Source of the DNA: Amia ocellicauda
Taxonomy: Eukaryota; Chordata; Actinopteri; Amiiformes; Amiidae
Length of the DNA stretch: 64,000 nt
Direction: 5' to 3'
Assembly: GCF_036373705.1 (NCBI RefSeq)
Contig: NC_089850.1
Coordinates: 34,644,233 to 34,708,232, forward strand
A model generated the notes under the pieces. The model saw nothing but the letters and a program-made list of their open reading frames with translations. It ran no database searches and had not been told where the DNA came from. Position 1 is the first letter of the stretch; every line of letters starts with the position of its first letter. This document shows positions 546-50,233 of this stretch, piece after piece. The translations under genes were made by a program, and so were the position numbers.

Positions 546-1559
546 TTAGTACTTGGTGGCAAAACCCTTGCTGGCAATCACAGAGGTCAGACGTTTCTTG
601 TAGTTGGCCACCAGGTTTGCACACATCTCAGGAGGGATTTTGTCCCACTCCTCTTTGCAGATCCTCTCCAAGTCATTAAGGTTTTGAGGCTGATGTTTGG
701 CAACTCGAACCTTCAGCTCCCTCCACAGATTTTCTATGGGATTAAGGTCTGGAGACTGGCTAGGCCACTGCAGGACCTTAATGTGCTTCATCTTCAGCCA
801 CTCCTGTGTTGCCTTGGCTGTGTGTTTTGGGTCATTGTCATGCTGGAATACCCATCCACGACCCATTTTCAATGCCCTGGCTGAGGGAAGAAGGTTCTCA
901 CCCAAGATTTGACGGTACATGGCCCCATCCATCGTCCCTTTGATGCGGTGCAGTTGTCCTGTCCCCTTAGCAGAAAAACACCCCCAAAGCATAATGTTTC
1001 CACCTCCATGTTTGACAGTGGGGATGGTGTTCTTGGGGTCATTCCTCCTCCTCCAAACACGGCGAGTTGAGTTGATGCCAAAGAGCTTGATTTTGGTCTC
1101 ATCTGACCACAACACTTTCACCCAGTTCTCCTCTGAATCATTCAGATGTTCATTGGCAAACTTCAGACGGGCCTGTACATGTGCTTTCTTGAGCAGGGGG
1201 ACCTTGCGGGCGCTGCAGGATTTCAGTCCTTCACGGCGTAGTGTGTTACCAATTGTTTTCTTGGTGACTATGGTCCCAGCTGCCTTGAGATCATTAACAA
1301 GATCCTCCCGTGTAGTTCTGGGCTGATTCCTCACCGTTCTCATGATCATTGAAACTCCGCGAGGTGAGATCTTGCATGGAGCCCCAGACCGAGGGAGACT
1401 GACAGTTATTTTGTGTTTCTTCCATTTGCGAATAATTTCACCAACTGTTGTCACCTTCTCACCAAGCTGCTTGGCGATGGTCTTGTAGCCCATTCCAGCC
1501 TTGTGTAGGTCTACAATCTTGTCCCTGACATCCTTGGACAGCTCTTTGGTCTTGGCCAT
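546..1559 (-). CDS. Tc1-like transposase, intact 337 aa
   Basis: This is a DDE/D transposase that cuts and pastes its own element into TA sites. The N-terminal third is a helix-turn-helix DNA-binding region ([18 protein letters not shown], then a GYKTIAKQL helix). The catalytic residues are visible in order as the D of WSDETK, the D of HDNDPKH and the E of NPIENLW. The frame is open from the ATG at 1559 to the stop beside the right-hand terminal repeat. It lacks three residues in the RRRN-DPKN segment compared with the form I remember, and the 45148 copy lacks the same three, so this is likely a family variant. Whether it is active cannot be told from sequence alone. Confidence 0.93.
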
Positions 1560-1601
1560 GGTGGAGAGTTTGGAATCTGATTGTTTGATTGCTTCTGTGG
1601 A

Positions 1602-1699
1602 CAGGTGTCTTTTATACAGGTAACGAGCTGAGATTAGGAGCAGTCCCTTTAAGAGAGTGCTCCTAATCTCAGCTCGTTACCTGTATAAAAGACACCTGG
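1602..1699. repeat. Internal hairpin in the Tc1 leader
   Basis: Two roughly 40-base arms beginning 'caggtgtcttttatacagg' are near-perfect reverse complements around a 15-base loop. The hairpin lies between the terminal repeat and the transposase start. One arm is also present in the 45.0 kb copy. It would fold in the transposase 5' leader RNA. Confidence 0.8.
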
Positions 1700-3416: not shown

Positions 3417-3767
3417 CCACCACTCCATTCCCATTCCAGCTGCTGTACTGCGTTGACAAGTTGCAGAAAAGGATACAGTGATGGCAATGATACACTGAAA
3501 CTTAATATTTACCCCCTTCCCCCTTCCTCTCCCATCCTGTCTCCCTCTTTCCCTCCCTCTCTTCTATCTTTTCACCTCTCCCTCCATGTCCTTATCCGTC
3601 CTTGTCTCTGTCTCTCTGCAGGAGGGCCGGTTCCTGTCCTGGTCAGTGGAGCACCTTCGAATGATCTCTAACCCTCACACCCAGCACGGTGAGAGAGAGA
3701 GACCCACACACTGACTGACCGACACTCTGACTGACTGACTTACTGACTTACTGATACACTGACCCCC

Positions 3768-3817
<50 letters not shown>

Positions 3818-5918
3818 GCATTGCGGTGATGATGTGGAGCACTTTCATCGTGAAGCGCTTCTCTGCAGCAGCCTTCCTCATGGAGAAGGTCAGAGGCCGA
3901 GAGAGGGATGAAGGGAGGGGGGGAGTGAGGGAATAGATGTTTTGGTTTCTAGCCTGTCATCTCTGTGACGAGTGACCTCTGACCTCTCTCTCCTGCAGGT
4001 GGGCAAAGCACCAAAGGACCGACTATGCAGGCGGGTGAGTCACTTTGTGTGTCATTAGGTGTGTGTGCGTCTCTGTGTGAAGGTCTGACAGTCTGTCCTC
4101 GTCTACCCCTATCTGTCTGTGCCCCTGCATGTTAGTGACAGTCTGTCTCTCTCTGCAGGATGTGGGGATGGGAGACGGGCCGTTGACGTCGTTCCTGGGC
4201 TCCTGCACCCAGGTGCTGCAGATCCTGATGGAGGTAACGCCATAGCCTTGTCATGACACCAAACACATACTGAAACTACATCTCAATCTGAAACTCTCCT
4301 CCCTTTCCTTCCTCTTTCCTTCTCCATCTACCTCATCCCTGCTTCTGTCATATTCAAATTCCAAAGGGGCTTTATTGGCATGACGCATTTACACAAGTGT
4401 TGCCAAAGCGCTTACAGATACAGTAACGAGAATAGAATAAATACAGTAACAAAATAAGTTAAATTGCTGTACAAAGCTTGGTGGATGTTATGAGTGTACG
4501 GTTGTGTTATTTTACATGTTCATCTCCTTCTCCCCTCGCATCCCGCCCCCCCACCAGGCAGATGCGGGCCGCGACGAAGTGCCCCCCCCAGCGCTGAGTG
4601 TGGAGGAGGTGTGGGGGGGTGTGGAGGGCCCGAGCTCAATGCTGGAGCTGGCCCTGGAGCAGCGCTCGGTCCACTACCCCCTGGTCCAGCACCACGCCCT
4701 GCTGGCCGCACTGCTGTTCGCTGCCATGACCTTCAACATCCGCCCTGCGCGGCCCCTCGGGCTGTTCGACAGCAAGGTCAGAGCGGAGGAGAGGGAAGGG
4801 AAGGAAGAGAAGGGAGGACGAAAAGGAGAGAGGGAGGGGAGGGTCTTTACATCTGTGTGAAAAGAGTTTAATATTTTGCCCTGCACTGTCCATCATTTCC
4901 TGTCATTCTCTGTCACCAGGGCAAGAATGCCTTCTTTAAAGACCTGACGTCCATCCAGCTGCTGCCCAGCGGAGACACCGACCCCGGACTGGTGTGTCTG
5001 AGGCAGGAGGTGAGAGCCCCTCCCACACCGACGCACTGACCCTCTGACGCACTGACCCTCTGACGCACTGATTGACGCACTGATTCTCTCTCTCTCTGCC
5101 CCAGTTCCTGCTGAAGGTGATGAGTGGCTGGGTGCAGTCTCTGGTGGAGGTGGGAGAGGAGTATCCCCCCCCCAGTCCCCCTGGTGGGGAGCAGTGGTCC
5201 GCGCTAGTGCTAGAGCTGGCCCCCCCGCTGCAGGTGAACTCTGACCTCCTGAGGAGACACCTGGTGTGTGAGCTGTACAGCCAGGGCCTGGACCGCCGTG
5301 CAGAGGAGGTACTGCCCTCCCTGAAGACTCGCACCCTGAACACTGCTCCCCAAACCTCAACACTGAACCCACAGCTGCAGCATTCACACTGTACCCTTCT
5401 AATACTGCACTGCGATACACTAACATCACTCTTCTTCTCTCCCTGCCCCTCCCTTCCTTTCCTCACCTCCGCTCTGTCACCCCTGCCCTCAGGTGATGTT
5501 GGAGGTGGAGGACCGGGAGGTTCTGGGCTCTCAGTTGCTGGTTCTGACAGGTCAGCGCCTATCCTACTCCCTGCTGCACACGCAGACCCGCGCCGGCATG
5601 GAGCTGCTGGCCAGACTGCCCCCTGTGCTGTGCACCTGGCTCAAAGCCATGGTAATGCCCCCTGTGTACACTGCCCTACATTGTTTGGGTTTCATTTATT
5701 CTGGTGATGTCATTGTTACCTCATCCCTCTCCACTGCTCCTCCTCTCCTCTCTCCCTCCTCTCAGGACCCCGTGGAGCTGCGCTGCCCCTCGGTGCCGCT
5801 GTCTCTCACCAGCCGCCTGGTCACCCGGCTGATCGAGATGCTGCCCGAGAGTCACGGCCAGTACAGCCTGGCCCTCCACCTGATGGAGGCTGTGGAGGCC
5901 CTGGACACCGAGCCCTGA
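2430..5918 (+). CDS. RAB3GAP2: RAB3GAP2, C-terminal ten exons (partial)
   Basis: This is the non-catalytic subunit of the Rab3 GTPase-activating complex, which with RAB3GAP1 acts on Rab3 in exocytosis and as an exchange factor for Rab18 at the ER. Exons are 2430-2536, 3622-3688, 3818-3888, 3999-4034, 4159-4233, 4558-4776, 4920-5009, 5105-5308, 5493-5651 and 5766-5918, all in phase, giving 392 residues to the stop. Recognisable stretches are [53 protein letters not shown] and [17 protein letters not shown]. The first intron inside the window uses a GC donor (GAG|GCAAGG). The earlier exons lie to the left of the window. IARS2 follows on the opposite strand, as in human 1q41, with one extra gene between them. 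Confidence 0.95.
2560..3415. repeat. AC-rich microsatellite/minisatellite in RAB3GAP2 intron
   Basis: About 850 bp of (AC)n is interrupted by recurring 'acgcatacgcagacac' and 'acacaaacacagac' blocks, ending in pure (AC)n. The long open frames on both strands (Cys-Val or His-Thr runs) are by-products of the repeat. It fills most of the intron between 2537 and 3621. Confidence 0.95.
4349..4480. repeat. Interspersed repeat fragment in RAB3GAP2 intron
   Basis: The segment begins 'attcaaattccaaaggggc' and includes 'tttattggcatgac'. I recognise this as a repeat common in fish genomes. It is a short fragment whose family I cannot name. Confidence 0.4.
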
Positions 5919-6105
5919 GAGATGGAGGGCATAGGAATGAGAAGAAGAAGAAGAAGAAGAAGAAGAAGAAGAGAGGAGTAGAGTGTGACAGTGATGGGAA
6001 GCTGAGGAGAGAGAGAGCTGGGGAGACAATTATTGACAGCAGTCCTACATTATATACTCCTGTACCCTGAGGCCAACAGTCTGTGTGCGTTACCAACCCC
6101 TGTTC

Positions 6106-6903
6106 AGCACACACTCTCAACAGTATACTGTCCCACACACTGTACACAGCACACACTCTCAACAGTATACTGTCCCACACACTGTGTACAGCACACACTC
6201 TCAACAGTATACTGTCCCACACACTGTGTACAGCACACACTCTCAACAGTATACTGTCCCACACACTGTGTACAGCACACACTCTCAACAGTATACTGTC
6301 CCACACACTGTACACAGCACACACTCTCAACAGTATACTGTCCCACACACTGTGTACAGCACACACTCTCAACAGTATACTGTCCCACACACTGTACACA
6401 GCACACACTCTCAACAGTATACTGTCCCACACACTGTGTACAGCACACACTCTCAACAGTATACTGTCCCACACACTGTACACAGCACACACTCTCAACA
6501 GTATACTGTCCCACACACTGTACACAGCACACACTCTCAACAGTATACTGTCCCACACACTGTACACAGCACACACTCTCAACAGTATACTGTCCCACAC
6601 ACTGTACACAGCACACACTCTCAACAGTATACTGTCCCACACACTGTGTACAGCACACACTCTCAACAGTATACTGTCCCACACACTGTACACAGCACAC
6701 ACTCTCAACAGTATACTGTCCCACACACTGTACACAGCACACACTCTCAACAGTATACTGTCCCACACACTGTACACAGCACACACTCTCAACAGTATAC
6801 TGTCCCACACACTGTGTACAGCACACACTCTCAACAGTATACTGTCCCACACACTGTGTACAGCACACACTCTCAACAGTATACTGTCCCACACACTGTG
6901 TAC
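6106..6903. repeat. 42-bp minisatellite, 19 copies, in the RAB3GAP2 3'UTR
   Basis: The unit starts agcacacactctcaacagta and is 42 bases long. Nineteen copies are almost identical. They come in two forms that differ only near the unit end ('ctgtacac' or 'ctgtgtac'): ten of the first and nine of the second. Because 42 is divisible by three, several frames stay open along the array. None looks like a real protein. Confidence 0.95.
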
Positions 6904-7177
6904 AGCACACAGCCAGTCCCCTCACCCCCTATATCAATTCTGTAACAAACACTCAGCGGTACTTTTATTAGTTCATCTGCTGAACAGAGATTGGTCTGTG
7001 GTCCCCGCGGTGCAGACTCATCCCCTGCGTCTCTCTCCTCTCTCCTGCCAGCCCAGCCTGATGTATTATAGAGCTGTCGCTGGTCCGTGTGGGGTCTCTG
7101 TGTGCTGCCCCGGTGTGTGTGTGACCCGCAGAGAGCCTGCAGCGCGTCCTGCTCTGCCCGGGCCGAGAGACGCCGCT

Positions 7178-9776: not shown

Positions 9777-9784
9777 TATATAAA
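9777..9784 (+). promoter_or_regulatory. TATA box of the TenA-like gene
   Basis: TATATAAA lies 80 bases upstream of the ATG. Transcription would start near 9808, giving a short leader of about 55 bases. A strong TATA box suggests tissue-restricted or inducible expression rather than housekeeping use (inference). Confidence 0.7.
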
Positions 9785-9863: not shown

Positions 9864-11633
9864 ATGAAATACTGCCTGATCTTCAGTCTGTTGTGCACAT
9901 GGTAAGACTGTTTTATCAATTCCGTCGCATCTTAACAATGACATCACAGCTAATATCACCATAGAGGTTTGGCACAAGGAAATGGACAGGTTATTGTGAG
10001 AAGTATTGTAATTCACACACAAAGACCACAATTAAACTGTTGTCTCCGTTATACTGTGTTTCTAACCACAGCCGCCTGTTACACAGCTCTGAGTGACATT
10101 TCTGGGCTTAACGGTCCCTCATTTTGCTAACTGGGCTGCTCCCCTTTCCTTTTCTTCCAATGAAGGTCAGTTTTTGCTCTGCCTCCAGATAACAACTGGC
10201 CATCAAGGAACAGTGAGTATCATATAACTCTACCTCAGGATCAGTTTTGGTAGAATTTAAGTCTCTTTAGCCAATAAAAATAACCATGTAGAGTAAGCAA
10301 AAAGAGAAAGTGATGACATTAAAGCATTTGACATTATTCAGGCAAGTAGATTAATTCCAGTATGTATTAATTTTGACATTTTTCACATTAAACCCCTAAA
10401 CAAACGGTTGCACTCAAGCAATTGAGAAGGCATTGTCCTTTTTATCCACCACCTATTTGATCTTGATGATGCATTTTCCCGTGACATGACGTTTTGGCTC
10501 CCCAATGCATAATAAAGTGTAATTAATTAATTTTCAATAATCAAATTAATATTTCAGAACATACATTAAAATAAAATGTTCTATGGATGACAGTAGAATG
10601 GATTCTTTGCTATGTGTTGCTGCAGTCCTTGCTGAGGACCGATAATTACATACAGAAAGGTACCTGAAACCTGCTCTACTGTGCTTCTGTTCTCGCTCAG
10701 GCAGGTTGAATGGCACCTTTCTCTATGACGAGCTCTGGGACAGCAACATGGACATTGCTAATAAAACACTGGAAACCGATTTCCTGAAAAAAATGGTTGC
10801 TGGAACCCTTCCAACAGAGTGCTACATGAAATTCACCCTCCAGGATATCTACTATTTGGTGGGAGTCACAAAAATACTGAAACATCTGAAGAAGCAGAAG
10901 GAGCCCCGTGAGGATGTGAAGGATTTCCTGATTGAAAGATATAACAGTTACAACAGATTTGCCCAGGAGACTCTAAAACAGTATAATCTCAAGGTAAGAG
11001 TCTAACACCCTCTGTTTATGGACTTACAACTACTGTCAATCTAACTTCATAATTTAATTTGGTTCTAATACAGCAGTTAAACCCGGGCGGAGGATATTCA
11101 GACAGCAGGGACTGTATATGAAGACAAATCACTGAAGCAGCTTAGGGTTCTGGGGTTGTTATGAAATTATCTTATTAAATCTCTTTTTCTGCTTCCTGGA
11201 TATAAGGAAAAGTTTTTTTTTATTACCCATAAAATGTCACAAAGCTGTATTTTTTCAAAACAATTGAAACTTTCCTCAACTGTCCCTAATGTTTGGTCCA
11301 CAGAATGCAAATGACATCCAACCCTCCAAAGCAACGGCCAGCTACCTGAAGAGTTACAACCAGATAGCCCAGAATATCGCCAAGAAGGATCACATGTACT
11401 TCGCAGTCGCCCTGCTGCCCTGTGCCAGACTTTGGCCTTACCTGGCTGAACATCTCAACATCTCATCCAGCAGCCCCTACTACGCGTTCAAGAGGGACAA
11501 TGAGGGAGGCAGCGCTGAAAAGCACTACAAGAACCTGCTGGAGAAGCACCGCCACAGCATGAAAGAATCCATAGTGAGAACCATCTTCAAACAGCACATG
11601 ACCTACGAGAATAAATTCTTTGTGTCGGCATGA
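9864..11633 (+). CDS. Secreted TenA/thiaminase-family protein, 235 aa, complete
   Basis: TenA-family enzymes hydrolyse thiamin or its aminopyrimidine breakdown products. Exons 9864-9901, 10166-10212, 10701-10993 and 11304-11633 join in phase; the acceptor at 10165 is chosen because the later AG at 10188 would create a stop. Residues 1-17 form a signal peptide (MKYCLIFSLLCTWSVFA, then LPP). The rest resembles bacterial TenA in length. The catalytic triad appears kept: Asp77 in TLQDIYYL, Cys166 in ALLPCARLW and Glu228 in TYENKFF, at spacings close to Asp44, Cys135 and Glu205 of Bacillus TenA. Tyr80 also corresponds to an active-site aromatic. Three N-glycosylation sequons (Asn32, Asn49, Asn178) fit the secretory route. 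I recall a report that a zebrafish TenA relative has thiaminase I activity. No frame damage is seen. The substrate is unproven. Confidence 0.88.
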
Positions 11634-11908: not shown

Positions 11909-11914
11909 AATAAA
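11909..11914 (+). terminator. poly(A) signal of the TenA-like gene
   Basis: AATAAA lies about 276 bases after the stop codon, which implies a short 3'UTR. Confidence 0.7.
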
Positions 11915-15444: not shown

Positions 15445-16665
15445 TACTCACCTAAAGGATTATTAGGAACACCATACTAATACTGTGTTTGACCCCCTTT
15501 CGCCTTCAGAACTGCCTTAATTCTACGTGGCATTGATTCAACAAGGTGCTGAAAGCATTCTTTAGAAATGTTGGCCCATATTGATAGGATAGCATCTTGC
15601 AGTTGATGGAGATTTGTGGGATGCACATCCAGGGCACGAAGCTCCCGTTCCACCACATCCCAAAGATGCTCTATTGGGTTGAGATCTGGTGACTGTGGGG
15701 GCCAGTTTAGTACAGTGAACTCATTGTCATGTTCAAGAAACCAATTTGAAATGATTCGACCTTTGTGACATGGTGCATTATCCTGCTGGAAGTAGCCATC
15801 AGAGGATGGGTACATGGTGGTCATAAAGGGATGGACATGGTCAGAAACAATGCTCAGGTAGGCCGTGGCATTTAAACGATGCCCAATTGGCACTAAGGGG
15901 CCTAAAGTGTGCCAAGAAAACATCCCCCACACCATTACACCACCACCACCAGCCTGCACAGTGGTAACAAGGCATGATGGATCCATGTTCTCATTCTGTT
16001 TACGCCAAATTCTGACTCTACCATCTGAATGTCTCAACAGAAATCGAGACTCATCAGACCAGGCAACATTTTTCCAGTCTTCAACTGTCCAATTTTGGTG
16101 AGCTTGTGCAAATTGTAGCCTCTTTTTCCTATTTGTAGTGGAGATGAGTGGTACCCGGTGGGGTCTTCTGCTGTTGTAGCCCATCCGCCTCAAGGTTGTA
16201 CGTGTTGTGGCTTCACAAATGCTTTGCTGCATACCTCGGTTGTAACGAGTGGTTATTTCAGTCAAAGTTGCTCTTCTATCAGCTTGAATCAGTCGGCCCA
16301 TTCTCCTCTGACCTCTAGCATCAACAAGGCATTTTCGCCCACAGGACTGCCGCATACTGGATGTTTTTCCCTTTTCACACCATTCTTTGTAAACCCTAGA
16401 AATGGTTGTGCGTGAAAATCCCAGTAACTAAGCAGATTGTGAAATACTCAGACCGGCCCGTCTGGCACCAACACCCACGCCACGCTCAAAATTGCTTAAA
16501 TCACCTTTCTTTCCCATTCAGACATTCAGTTTGGAGTTCAGGAGATTGTCTTGACCAGGACCACACCCCTAAATGCATTGAAGCAACTGCCATGTGATTG
16601 GTTGGTTAGATAATTGCATTAATGAGAAATTGAACAGGTGTTCCTAATAATCCTTTAGGTGAGTG
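15445..16665 (-). mobile_element. Tc1/mariner element, family B, copy 1 (defective)
   Basis: It is 1221 bp with short inverted ends (about 29 bp, core ACTCACCTAAAGGATTATT) and flanking TA dinucleotides. Its transposase frame is broken by one stop. Related copies are at 26900, 35988 and 49017. Confidence 0.92.
15477..16517 (-). pseudogene. Family B Tc1 transposase with one nonsense codon
   Basis: The frame is full length (346-codon equivalent) from the ATG at 16517. A CAG-to-TAG change in the N-terminal SQSAQLLG helix (about 16427-16431) stops translation early. After it the frame is open to the normal end, with the catalytic motifs WSDES, QQDNAPCH and NPIEHLWD intact. Confidence 0.9.
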
Positions 16666-19278: not shown

Positions 19279-29734
<10,456 letters not shown>

Positions 29735-31840: not shown

Positions 31841-32228
31841 TATATTTTCTCTCTCTTAAGTGACCCTAATGCTCTTCGGTAGCTTTTGGCATTCTAGTAC
31901 ATGATAAATAGCAATTATGGACACTATATTTAAATGACATTGTTCTGAATAACTGTGTTCACGTGTAGGATTAGCAGTAATAAATGTATCCCACAATTAC
32001 ACAATGTTTCTTTCACAGTAGAAAATGTAAAAAGCACAGAGCAATACAAAAAGACACCCAACAAAAGGAATCTGGTGTGACATGACAGGTCAACTTCGCC
32101 CCCTTTACAAATGTGAAATATCCATAAGTACAATAGTACAATCAATACTGAATAATATTACACAATGAAAAAATAACATTAGAATAAATTACACAACAGA
32201 CTAATGTGACAGGTAGTGACAGACTCAC
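31841..32228. other. Region downstream of the NLR exon
   Basis: Leucine-rich-repeat exons of the NLR gene would be expected here or further left. I see none before the IARS2 promoter. Confidence 0.5.
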
Positions 32229-33931
32229 CTGAGAAATGCAACATTGTGCAAGCAGCCCAGGAACAGCTTCAGGCCCGTGTCAGACAGAGTGCAGTTCTGC
32301 AGGTTCAGATTGACCTTTGCCCCCTGCGACTGGCTAATGACATAGGAGACTGTGCAGCACTGGTGAGGATCAAGCTGCTCGTCACTCAGGTCAAAGCGAT
32401 ACTCAATTCTCTCCAGAAAGTACAAACAAGCGTCCTGTGACTGTGACTCGTACAAGCACTGACACACAGAGATGATGTTCTCAGGGTCCTCGAGCTCATC
32501 TGGGTCCTCGTCCAGGAGACTATCTATGACTTCCTTAAGGTATCTGGCAGAGTTTTCCCTGATCTTGTTCTCTGGAATCAGACATCTCACAAGCCTGGTG
32601 TTTTTACTGGACAGAAGCCCACACAAGAACACAACCATGTACTTCAGATGCTTCTCCTCGTCAGTCCTGCACTGACGCAGTATCTCTCTGATTTGGTCAG
32701 GTTTCTCCAGCAGCCAAAGAGCAGCCCAGAACTCCTGCACTGTGTTGTGGAGAAATGCACAGATGGTTTCTATAGATGTTAGTGAATCTCTGACATCTGT
32801 TGACCATAAGAAAGCTTGCTGTACACTACTTTCCTCAATACTGACACCACATAAATTGACACTCTTTTGCAGCATTGCCTGTAAAGAGGCTTCAGCTAAA
32901 GTCATAATGTCCTGCCTGTTTTCCTCAATGTATTTATCCAGATGCTTCCTCACAGACCTCCCTCTCTCCTTCTCAGCATGTCTTTCCATGCAGTGGCGGA
33001 AGATGTGCAGGTATAGTTCAGTTATACTGGACTGCTGTCTGCCAGCCTCAGGAGATGTAAATAAAATGTTGGCAGAGACTATGAAGGCATACATTGGGAC
33101 ATGACAGAGACTGAGCAGCTCCAGGTTCTCCAGGACTCTGCCTGCATCTCCACCCTTGGTGCTTCCCAACACAGTCTTAAAGTAAACACCGATGGATTCC
33201 TCACTGAAGCCCAGCACCTCTACTCTGTAGCTCGGCCAGTCAGAAAGATCTGACAGGAGATACTCTCGTTCTGGGCGGCAGGTAATGACAATCTTGGCCT
33301 CTGGCAGAAGCTCCTTCTTCACAATACTGTAAACCAGTGATCTGATGGTGACGTCTGCAGTGTTTGAAGTCTCAATGTCTGAATTCAGCATGCTGTCAGT
33401 GATGCCATCGATAATGATGACCACAATATCTGAATTCTCAGCAATATCCTGAAACACTTCATCAGCTCCTTCCCCTGGGAGTCGGTACTTATTAAACAGA
33501 AGGGATCTCAGGCTGATGGGATTTGAGATGCGGCTCAAGGTTTCCACAGGAAAGTAAAACATGTAGTCCAGATCACGATTCTCTCTCTGTGCCCAGAGAC
33601 TCAGCATCTGCAGAGCCACAGAGGTTTTCCCTATGCCAGGTTTCCCAACCAGAAGAATTTTTCTCCCATAGGTTTTAAGAAAGTCCTCAGGATGCACTTT
33701 TCTCCTGTCAGGTGGGATGTAAGCCCTTCATCTTCTTCCAACGAGATTTCTTGTACTTTTTGCATTTATAAACCTCTGACTTGTCTGTATCCAAAACCAG
33801 AGGGATGTAGGTGAAGTTTGGCACTTGGTTCTCATCCTTGATAAGATTTCTACTCTTCATCCATTCATCATTAACAATTTGTTTGGCTTTTAATTTCAGT
33901 TGTATCTGGTATCTGTGACAAGGCTTTGAAC
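32229..33931 (-). pseudogene. NLR (NACHT) gene fragment with one frameshift
   Basis: NLRs are cytoplasmic innate immune sensors. One exon, from an acceptor at 33932-33933 to a CAG|GTGAGT donor at 32229/32228, carries a short lead-in, then a NACHT ATPase: Walker A GKPGIGKTS, Walker B VVIIIDG, sensor ITCRPE, helical segments, and the start of an LRR (LNLQNCTLSDTGLKL). The lead-in and the NACHT part are in different frames. One extra G in the GGG at 33714-33716 accounts for the break, because dropping it would join the frames smoothly. It could be real decay or a sequencing error. The LRR exons expected after the donor are not seen. It resembles fish NLRC3/NLRC-type genes, but I cannot assign a subclass. 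5' exons are unknown. Confidence 0.8.
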
Positions 33932-35987: not shown

Positions 35988-37205
35988 CACTCACCTAAAG
36001 GATTATTAGGAACACCTGTTCAATTTCTCATTAATGCAATTATCTAACCAACCAATCACATGGCAGTTGCTTCAATGCATTTAGGGGTGTGGTCCGGGTC
36101 AAGACAATCTCCTGAACTCCAAACTGAATGTCTGAATGGGAAAGAAAGGTGATTTAAGCAATTTTGAGCGTGGCATGGTTGTTGGTGCCAGACGGGCCGG
36201 TCTGAGTATTTCACAATCTGCTCAGTTACTGGGATTTTCACGCATAACCATTTCTAGGGTTTACAAAGAATGGTGTGAAAAGGGAAAAACATCCAGTATG
36301 CGGCAGTCCTGTGGGCGAAAATGCCTTGTTGATGCTAGAGGTCAGAGGAGAATGGGCCGACTGATTCAAGCTGATAGAAGAGCAACTTTGACTGAAATAA
36401 CTCGTTACAACCGAGGTATGCAGCAAAGCATTTGTGAAGCCACAACATGTACAACCTTGAGGCGGATGGGCTACAACAGCAGAAGACCCCACCGGGTACC
36501 ACTCATCTCCACTACAAATAGGAAAAAGAGGCTACAATTTGCACAAGCTCACCAAAATTGGACAGTTGAAGACTGGAAAAATGTTGCCTGGTCTGATGAG
36601 TCTCGATTTCTGTTGAGACATTCAGATGGTAGAGTCAGAATTTGGCGTAAACAGAATGAGAACATGGATCCATCATGCCTTGTTACCACTGTGCAGGCTG
36701 GTGGTGGTGGTGTAATGGTGTGGGGGATGTTTTCTTGACACACTTTAGGCCCCTTAGTGCCAATTGGGCATCGTTTAAATGCCACGGCTTACCTGAGCAT
36801 TGTTTCTGACCATGTCCATCCCTTTATGACCACCATGTACCCATCCTCTGATGGCTACATCCAGCAGGATAATGCACCATGTCACAAAGGTCGAATCATT
36901 TCAAATTGGTTTCTTGAACATGACAATGAGTTCACTGTACTAAACTGGCCCCCACAGTCACCAGATCTCAACCCAATAGAGCATCTTTGGGATGTGGTGG
37001 AACGGGAGCTTCGTGCCCTGGATGTGCATCCCACAAATCTCCATCAACTGCAAGATGCTATCCTATCAATATGGGCCAACATTTCTAAAGAATGCTTTCA
37101 GCACCTTGTTGAATCAATGCCACGTAGAATTAAGGCAGTTCTGAAGGCGAAAGGGGGTCAAACACAGTATTAGTATGGTGTTCCTAATAATCCTTTAGGT
37201 GAGTG
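35988..37205 (+). mobile_element. Tc1/mariner element, family B, copy 3 (defective)
   Basis: It is 1218 bp with inverted ends and TA on both sides (35986-35987 and 37206-37207). Relative to copy 2 it has a 3-base deletion (one Thr lost) and a stop codon. Its right end marks exactly where homology between the two MROH copies begins. Confidence 0.93.
36136..37173 (+). pseudogene. Family B transposase with one nonsense codon
   Basis: The same frame runs the full length except for TGA at 36736-36738, where the other copies have TGG after VWGMFS. The N-terminal DNA-binding part and the first two catalytic residues are separated by the stop from the NPIEHLWD part. Confidence 0.92.
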
Positions 37206-44988: not shown

Positions 44989-46367
44989 CACTGAGGGAAA
45001 AAAGTATTTGATCCCCTATCAATCAGCAAGGTGTCTTTTATACAGGTAACTCTCTTAAAGGTAGTGCTCCTAATCTCAGCTCATTACCTGTATAAAAGAC
45101 ACCTGTCCACAGAAGGAATCAAACAATCAGATTCCAAACTCTCCACTATGGCCAAGACCAAAGAGCTGTCCAAGGATGTCAGGGACAAGATTGTAGACCT
45201 ACACAAAGCTGGAATGGGCTACAAGACCATCGCCAAGCAGCTTGGTGAGAAGGTGACAACAGTTGGTGCGATTATTCGCAAATGGAAGAAACACAAAATA
45301 ACTGTCAGTCTCCCACGGTCTGGGGCTCCATGCAAGATCTCACCTCGTGGAGTTTCAATGATCATGAGAACGGTGAGGAATCAGCCCAGAACTACACGGG
45401 AGGATCTTGTTAATGATCTCAAGGCAGCTGGGACCATAGTCACCAAGAAAACAATTGGTAACACACTACGCCGTGAAGGACTGAAATCCTGCAGCGCCCG
45501 CAAGGTCCCCCTGCTCAAGAAAGCACATGTACAGGCCCGTCTGAAGTTTGTCAATGAACATCTGAATGATTCAGAGGAGAACTGGGTGAAAGTGTTGTGG
45601 TCAGATGAGACCAAAATCGAGCTCTTTGGCATCAACACAACTTGCTGTGTTTGGAGAGGGAGGAATGACCCCAAGAACACCATCCCCACCGTCAAACATG
45701 GAGGTGGAATCATTATGCTTTGGGGGTGTTTTTCTGCTAAGGGGACAGGACAACTGCACCGCATCAAAGGGACAATGGATGGGGCCATGTACCGTCAAAT
45801 CTTGGGTGAGAACCTCCTTCCCTCAGCCAGGGCATTGAAAATGGGTCGTGGATGGTATTCCAGCATGACAATGACCCAAAACAGACAGCCAAGGCAACAA
45901 AGGAGTGGCTCAAGAAGAAGCACATTAAGGTCCTGGAGTGGCCAAGCCAGTCTCCAGACCTTAATCCCATAGAAAATCTGTGGAGGGAGCTGAAGGTTCG
46001 AGTTGCCAAACGTCAGCCTCGAAACCTTAATGACTTGGAGAGGATCTGCAAAGAGGAGTGGGACAAAATCCCTCCTGAGATGTGTGCAAACCTGGTGGCC
46101 AACTACAAGAAACTTCTGACCTCTTTGATTGCCAACAAGGGTTTTGCCACCAAGTACTAAGTCGAAGGGGTCAAATACTTATTTCCCTCATTAACATGCA
46201 AATCAATGTATAACTTTTTTGAAATGCATTTTTCTGGATTTTTTTGTTGTTATTCTGTCTCTCACTGTTAAAATGCACCTACCATTAAAATTATAGACTG
46301 ATCATTTCTTTGTCAGTGGGCAAACGTACAAAATCAGCAGGGGATCAAATACTTTTTCCCCCCACTG
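44989..46367 (+). mobile_element. Tc1/mariner element, family A, copy 2 (defective)
   Basis: It is flanked by TA. The left terminal repeat is cut short: after about 25 bases the sequence jumps to the internal leader, losing roughly 200 bases. The right terminal repeat is complete. The transposase has a frameshift. Confidence 0.92.
45148..46160 (+). pseudogene. Family A Tc1 transposase with a frameshift
   Basis: From ATG 45148 the frame matches the 337-aa protein until about 45852. There one G is missing compared with the intact copy ('ggatggtattcc' for 'ggatgggtattcc'), and the rest continues in another frame to 46160. All three catalytic motifs remain readable across the two frames. Confidence 0.92.
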
Positions 46368-49016: not shown

Positions 49017-50233
49017 CACTCACCTAAAGGATTATTAGGAACACCATACTAATACTGTGTTTGACCCCCTTTCGCCTTCAGAACTGCCTTAATTCTACGT
49101 GGCATTGATTCAACAAGGTGCTGAAAGCATTCTTTAGAAATGTTGGCCCATATTGATAGGATAGCATCTTGCAGTTGATGGAGATTTGTGGGATGCACAT
49201 CCAGGGCACGAAGCTCCCGTTCCACCACATCCCAAAGATGCTCTATTGGGTTGAGATCTGGTGACTGTGGGGGCCAGTTTAGTACAGTGAACTCATTGTC
49301 ATGTTCAAGAAACCAATTGGAAATGATTCCACCTTTGTGACATGGTGCATTATTCTGCTGGAAGTAGCCATCAGAGGATGGGTACATGGTGGTCATAAAG
49401 GGATGGACATGGTCAGAAACAATGCTCAGGTAGGCCGTGGCATTTAAACCATGCCCAATTGGCACTAAGGGCCTAAAGTGTGCCAAGAAAACATCCCCCA
49501 CACCATTACACCACCACCACCAGCCTGCACAGTGGTAACAAGGCATGATGGATCCATGTTCTCATTCTGTTTACGCCAAATTCTGACTCTACCATCTGAA
49601 TGTCTCAACAGAAATCGAGACTCATCAGACCAGGCAACATTTTTCCAGTCTTCAACTGTCCAATTTTGGTGAGCTTGTGCAAATTGTAGCCTCTTTTTCC
49701 TATTTGTAGTGGAGATGAGTGGTACCCGGTGGGGTCTTCTGCTGTTGTAGCCCATCCGCCTCAAGGTTGTACGTGTTGTGGCTTCACAAATGCTTTGCTG
49801 CATACCTCGGTTGTAACGAGTGGTTATTTCAGTCAAAGTTGCTCTTCTATCAGCTTGAATCAGTCGGCCCATTCTCCTCTGACCTCTAGCATCAACGAGG
49901 CATTTTCGCCCACAGGACTGCCGCATACTGGATGTTTTTCCCTTTTCACACCATTCTTTGTAAACCCTAGAAATGGTTGTGCGTGAAAATCCCAGTAACT
50001 GAGCAGATTGTGAAATACTCAGACCGGCCCGTCTGGCACCAACAACCATGCCACGCTCAAAATTGCTTAAATCACCTTTCTTTCCCATTCAGACATTCAG
50101 TTTGGAGTTCAGGAGATTGTCTTGACCAGGACCACACCCCTAAATGCATTGAAGCAACTGCCATGTGATTGGTTGGTTAGGTAATTGCATTAATGAGAAA
50201 TTGAACAGGTGTTCCTAATAATCCTTTAGGTGA

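Follow-up and report, generated by a model that had tools for sequence, protein, structure and literature searches.

Zebrafish carries a gene of the tenA-like kind that encodes an active thiaminase I, as established with recombinant protein (Richter et al. 2023, PMC9839694); co-substrates of the recombinant enzyme are pyridine and nicotinic acid (PMC9839694). The proteins from alewife and carp were insoluble when produced in E. coli and their activity was not assayed, so that a single recombinant protein carries the evidence for activity of this family in fishes (PMC9839694). The reaction reported for the zebrafish enzyme is of the same type as that of thiaminase I from Paenibacillus thiaminolyticus, a protein with which, by the account in PMC9839694, the zebrafish genes share no sequence similarity. 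Thiaminase-positive fishes, scored by activity or by sequence, made up 119 of 300 and ranged from bichir to livebearers (Rowland et al. 2023, PMC10598016); the sequence criterion in that paper combined an identity of 35% or more to NP_001314821.1 from zebrafish with the presence of its Cys153. The same source cites a lysosomal localisation of fish thiaminase, with activity being highest in immune tissues, and the reason why fish make thiaminase is still open according to its discussion.

Fish and invertebrate proteins have been placed in the lineage of the bacterial protein BtTenA (BT_3146, PDB 2a2m/2a2o), a lineage in which the pair of active-site Glu residues is reduced to one (Stentz et al. 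2023, PMC10277260). BtTenA has reported thiaminase activity and is carried by extracellular vesicles; the active site of B. subtilis TenA contains the catalytic Cys135 and Glu205 in the numbering of that paper (PMC10277260). A TenA gene in a vertebrate is thus already known, since these three papers of 2023 report fish members (PMC9839694, PMC10277260, PMC10598016).

Here, we describe a gene in a 64-kb stretch of DNA from the fish Amia ocellicauda, the whole of which we call the window. Judging from its sequence, it is in all likelihood an ordinary gene, intact and protein-coding, of the TenA-like thiaminase I kind published for fishes, belonging to the BtTenA lineage of the TENA/THI-4 proteins.

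Structure of the gene

Splice reconstruction joins four exons on the + strand into 708 nt, which correspond to 235 codons and the stop codon TGA. The presence of the gene in the window, and the four in-phase exons encoding 235 residues that were described in an earlier note on this DNA, are confirmed by the open frame and the GT/AG introns. The features are listed below, with a slash at each splice junction.

9777..9784, + strand: TATA-box-like TATATAAA, a match to TATAAA about 80 nt 5' of the start codon
9864-9901, + strand: exon 1, start ATG with A at -3, donor CATG/gtaagact; holds most of the signal-type sequence
10166-10212, + strand: exon 2 (47 nt), acceptor cttccaatgaag/GTCA, donor AACA/gtgagtat; holds the last of the signal-type sequence and then the first mature residues
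10701-10993, + strand: exon 3, encodes the first (N-terminal) half of the TenA domain, Asp77 and Tyr80 included, and residues 34-51, which match the cornetfish Edman N-terminus (see below)
11304-11633, + strand: exon 4, encodes the second (C-terminal) half of the TenA domain, including Cys166, Tyr186 and Glu228; stop codon TGA
11909..11914, + strand: polyadenylation-type signal AATAAA, with no earlier AATAAA or ATTAAA past the stop codon

All three introns start with GT and end with AG, and the coding sequence contains neither an internal stop nor a frameshift. Three acceptors were tried for exon 2, one of which (AAG/GTCAG at 10166) keeps the frame open, while the two alternatives each break it and were rejected. 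The homology to bacterial proteins spans exons 3 and 4, and in the alignment with 2a2m it runs without a gap across the joint between them. Homology support is confined to these two exons, and exons 1 and 2 are supported by their splice sites, the frame, the upstream TATA-like site and hydrophobicity. Just 5' of exon 3, and in frame with it, a short ATG frame (10598-10645, + strand) reads MDSLLCVAAVLAEDR followed by TAA and resembles a signal peptide; it may be either a chance occurrence or the remnant of another first exon.

A tblastn search of the window gave six matches, four of which (E < 1) are the exons of the gene itself, while the others have E values of 5.4 and 6.8. A second copy was therefore not found in the 64-kb window, although a much diverged copy could escape such a search. 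The zebrafish genes, by contrast, are two adjacent paralogues with three exons each (PMC9839694), as compared to the one copy with four exons in Amia. A search against Rfam at the gathering threshold gave no matches across the window.

Membership in the TenA superfamily and conservation of the active site

The earlier note had assigned the product to the TenA family and proposed a profile search against TenA/THI-4. In this search, residues 55-232 match Pfam PF03070 (TENA_THI-4) with 33.6 bits, as compared to a curated cut-off of 22. The assignment is further borne out by a phmmer search of the PDB, by the invariant residues and by the profile comparison described below. The best PDB match is 2a2m (BT3146 from Bacteroides thetaiotaomicron), with E = 2.3e-18 and 29% identity over residues 35-234. 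With an E-value limit of 10, the search gives seven PDB sequences, four of which (2gm7, 4fn6, 2qzc and 3no6) are named TenA or thiaminase. The remaining matches are 2a2m and two "transcriptional" proteins, 1udd and 1rtw, which we take to be TenA-like proteins. These matches to solved TenA structures suggest that the fish protein would adopt the haem-oxygenase-like, all-helical fold.

The fish protein and BtTenA share an LPCxxLWP motif, and a DNA pattern written for it (about LPCxxLWP[YCW]xA) picked out 38 loci. At two of these, the encoded protein is a TenA relative (E up to 0.01), and the other 36 were dropped. The two are a BtTenA-like gene from Symploca, a cyanobacterium (L012, 5534-6256, + strand), and another from an Atopobiaceae genome labelled sheep ileum (L017, 6436-7170, - strand). 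Neither of these names was met in the parts of PMC10277260 that were consulted. Plasmid relatives of the fish protein were found in five records, each annotated as TenA, with 23-26% identity, and a plasmid search with the BtTenA stretch gave one record at E up to 0.001. Phage sequences gave no match, and the search for related loci confirmed none of 151 genome-contig stretches and none of 56 viral-contig stretches.

In the alignment of the fish protein with BtTenA, L012 and L017, 25 columns are invariant in all four rows, among them Asp77, Tyr79, Tyr80, Tyr140, Cys166, Tyr186 and Glu228. Counted from the alignment, Asp77, Cys166 and Glu228 correspond to residues 91, 176 and 241 of the 2a2m chain, the latter two being offset by a constant +12 from the BtTenA numbering of PMC10277260, in which they are Cys164 and Glu229. 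The residues that define TenA_C, the class with an active-site cysteine, were mapped through the BtTenA alignment: Cys166 aligns with BtTenA Cys164, and Asp77 and Glu228 are invariant in the four rows. The active-site Asp of B. subtilis TenA is presumably Asp44. The three residues are thus present as the earlier note had said, and only its statement that their spacings match those of TenA needs to be relaxed. The spacings are 89/62 in the fish protein as compared to 85/65 in 2a2m and 93/71 in 4fn6, which makes the match approximate. Since spacings vary from protein to protein, it is the alignment that shows the correspondence of the triad. A profile built from the four rows matches three plasmid-borne TenA proteins with a probability of 98.9 and E = 1.6e-17 over 197 columns.

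Placement in the BtTenA lineage

A tree was inferred from 10 rows, in which the fish protein, 2a2m, L012 and L017 form one group apart from the canonical TenA proteins with a support of 100/99, with the caution that the rows are few, that some are cut short, that the branches are long and that the tree output warns of possibly false joins. The row nearest to the fish protein by tree path is 2a2m, while in the tree alignment the highest identity to the fish row, 27% over 135 columns, is shown by 1udd, a row that is truncated, and not by the BtTenA rows. That L012 and L017 fall into this group is partly a matter of selection, because both were picked by the shared motif. The link between the fish protein and BtTenA is not, because 2a2m was the first of seven matches in an open search of the PDB.

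Relationship to thiaminase I from fishes

The Edman N-terminus of thiaminase I purified from red cornetfish, as printed in PMC9839694, aligns with residues 34-51 of the Amia protein, with 9 of 18 residues identical and a BLOSUM62 score of 53. None of 2000 shuffles of the protein reaches this score, the highest being 34, and the runner-up among the 2255 stop-to-stop translations made from the window scores 22. In zebrafish, the cornetfish peptide aligns at a similar N-terminal place, residues 25-40 (PMC9839694). Two of the three internal cornetfish peptides were also compared, the third being left out with its five residues. Both match weakly at residues 79-89, with 21 and 18 of 2000 shuffles scoring as well, and this is not the place at which PMC9839694 aligns one of the two in zebrafish (residues 195-204). 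These matches are given no weight. Compared by published description, the zebrafish protein si:ch1073-67j19.1 (NP_001314821.1) and the Amia protein are both TenA-like, with a signal sequence and a cysteine at the active-site position, which in the Amia protein is Cys166. The link to fish thiaminase that was drawn in the earlier note is thus well supported by the TenA matches, the cornetfish N-terminus and the published work on zebrafish (PMC9839694).

The protein could also be a TenA-fold enzyme that acts mainly as a thiaminase II or aminopyrimidine hydrolase, with water as the acceptor, and not as a base-exchange thiaminase I. The fish protein belongs to the same Pfam superfamily as bacterial TenA thiaminase II (TIGR04306; 4fn6 is named thiaminase-2), the Asp, Cys and Glu residues align, and the two activities are not separable by sequence alone. 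Most bacterial TenA enzymes are thiaminase II or aminopyrimidine hydrolases. However, the fish protein scores 34.2 bits against TIGR04306, the bacterial thiaminase II equivalog, far under the cut-off of 130, which a canonical plasmid TenA used as a control (L040) passes with 140.7 bits. It also contains LPCARLWP where 4fn6 has APCPYIYA. Furthermore, the relative tested from zebrafish behaves as a thiaminase I that accepts pyridine and nicotinic acid, and the matching cornetfish peptide was obtained from a thiaminase I preparation (PMC9839694). We consider a predominant thiaminase II activity unlikely, and thiaminase I is favoured for the Amia protein because this is the activity of the recombinant protein from zebrafish (PMC9839694).

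It would be more surprising still if the gene encoded a TenA-fold protein that had diverged or been recruited and that cleaved thiamin poorly or not at all, for example a binder of thiamin or pyrimidine. Such a reading fits an identity to the three lineage rows (BtTenA, L012 and L017) of only 28-29% and the demonstration of recombinant activity for one fish member (PMC9839694), but Asp77, Cys166 and Glu228 are all retained, and the frame and the splice sites are intact, and we regard it as very improbable.

Predicted destination of the product

For the thiaminase I kind of protein that we favour, the N-terminus is of interest. The mean Kyte-Doolittle hydropathy of residues 3-17 is 1.87, as compared to 1.35 for the highest-scoring 15-residue window among those that begin after residue 21, which is found at residue 159, and VFA/L at residues 15-18 agrees with the -3,-1 rule. 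By hydropathy and by this fit, the first 17 residues are signal-like, so that the signal peptide of the earlier note is retained as a prediction. Its three glycosylation sequons are present at N32, N49 and N178. Removal of residues 1-17 would leave a chain of 25.7 kDa with a pI of 9.25, as calculated from the sequence.

We infer, on sound grounds, that the product enters the secretory pathway. The N-terminal sequence would route it there, and the protein would be trimmed to about 25 kDa and glycosylated, with the lysosomes or the outside of the cell as its final site. Lysosomes and the cell exterior are equally likely end points, because PMC10598016 cites a lysosomal localisation and the highest activity in immune tissues. 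The earlier note had the product working outside the cytosol, in contrast to bacterial TenA, and its interpretation is partly supported. Secretory entry is upheld as a prediction, while the contrast is too strong, because BtTenA, the closest solved bacterial relative found, goes into extracellular vesicles (PMC10277260). The difference that remains is one of route, in that the bacterial protein is exported in vesicles, whereas the fish protein has a predicted eukaryotic signal sequence.

Genomic surroundings

The gene is located between sequences related to RAB3GAP2 and to isoleucyl-tRNA synthetase. In a Pfam scan of 20 ORFs in the window, picked by codon scoring with a human codon table, 10 were above the cut-off of a family. 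Those flanking the gene are as follows.

3763-3933, 4450-4857 and 5084-5704, + strand: three ORFs matching the RAB3GAP2 C-terminal family in profile order, upstream of the thiaminase gene
28947-29150, 28602-28943 and 20447-20734, - strand: tRNA synthetase class I or anticodon-binding domain, above the Pfam cut-off, downstream
28102-28389, - strand: tRNA synthetase ORF just under the cut-off (22.2 vs 22.7 bits)

PDB searches with two of the RAB3GAP2-region ORFs gave three unrelated weak matches in one case and none in the other. With an E-value limit of 0.01, the ORF at 28602-28943 has 11 PDB matches, all of them isoleucyl-tRNA ligases, with the one named "cytoplasmic" in tenth place, and the downstream gene is probably IARS2, which encodes the mitochondrial enzyme. 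In human 1q41, IARS2 and RAB3GAP2 are convergent neighbours, and the thiaminase gene would therefore lie where the 3' ends of two genes, probably neighbours of old, face each other. This position was not met in the literature consulted, but since the literature search was not aimed at fish synteny, we do not claim that it is absent from print. What is new at this locus is local: four exons as compared to three in zebrafish, a single copy in the window and the position between RAB3GAP2 and IARS2.

Bacterial contamination of the assembly, or a pseudogene, is hardly credible and was rejected: the relatives found are all bacterial or archaeal, but in collections that apart from the PDB hold no animals, while contamination is already contradicted by the intron structure (three GT/AG introns) and further by the TATA-like site, the polyadenylation-type signal and vertebrate-type genes on both sides, and a pseudogene by a coding sequence free of stops and frameshifts.

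Several other elements were observed in the window. Just 3' of the RAB3GAP2 matches, a 42-bp tandem repeat extends over 6105-6911 with 19.2 copies and 97% matches. A 500-codon open frame at 32228-33727 (- strand) contains NACHT and NLRC4 HD2 domains and represents an exon of an NLR-type immune receptor. Tc1-type transposases with a Sleeping Beauty HTH domain are found at 549-1676 (- strand) and 44995-45969 (+ strand), the first of which is open over 376 codons. A second family of Tc1-type transposases is represented at 26935-27972 (- strand), where 346 codons are open and Pfam transposase families are matched, and by copies at 15480-16427 (- strand), 49052-50088 (- strand) and 36136-37170 (+ strand), which were recognised by eye from their near-identical translations. 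The Tc1-type transposases and the NACHT/NLR frame are in keeping with a ray-finned fish.

Proposed mechanism and role

For a fish thiaminase I of the BtTenA lineage, a mechanism can be proposed from TenA enzymology and from the zebrafish enzyme. Cys166 would attack the pyrimidine of thiamin, while Asp77 and the tyrosines would hold the pyrimidine ring and Glu228 would move protons. The thiazole would depart, and an organic base, in the case of thiaminase I, or water, in the case of thiaminase II, would take the pyrimidine off the enzyme. The most likely purpose, which is one published proposal, may be the degradation of free thiamin against microbes in immune tissue. We offer with considerable doubt a fuller scenario, in which a bacterial-type enzyme in lysosomes or secretions would deprive microbes of vitamin B1 and so provide nutritional immunity, with the RAB3GAP2-IARS2 site as an old ray-finned home of the gene and the zebrafish pair as the result of a later move.

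Fish thiaminase leads to vitamin B1 deficiency in predators and in farmed animals, and its gene family was reported in 2023 (PMC9839694). The locus described here leaves the knowledge of the enzyme unchanged and, as a further intact member, helps to trace which fishes carry the gene and where in their genomes it is located.
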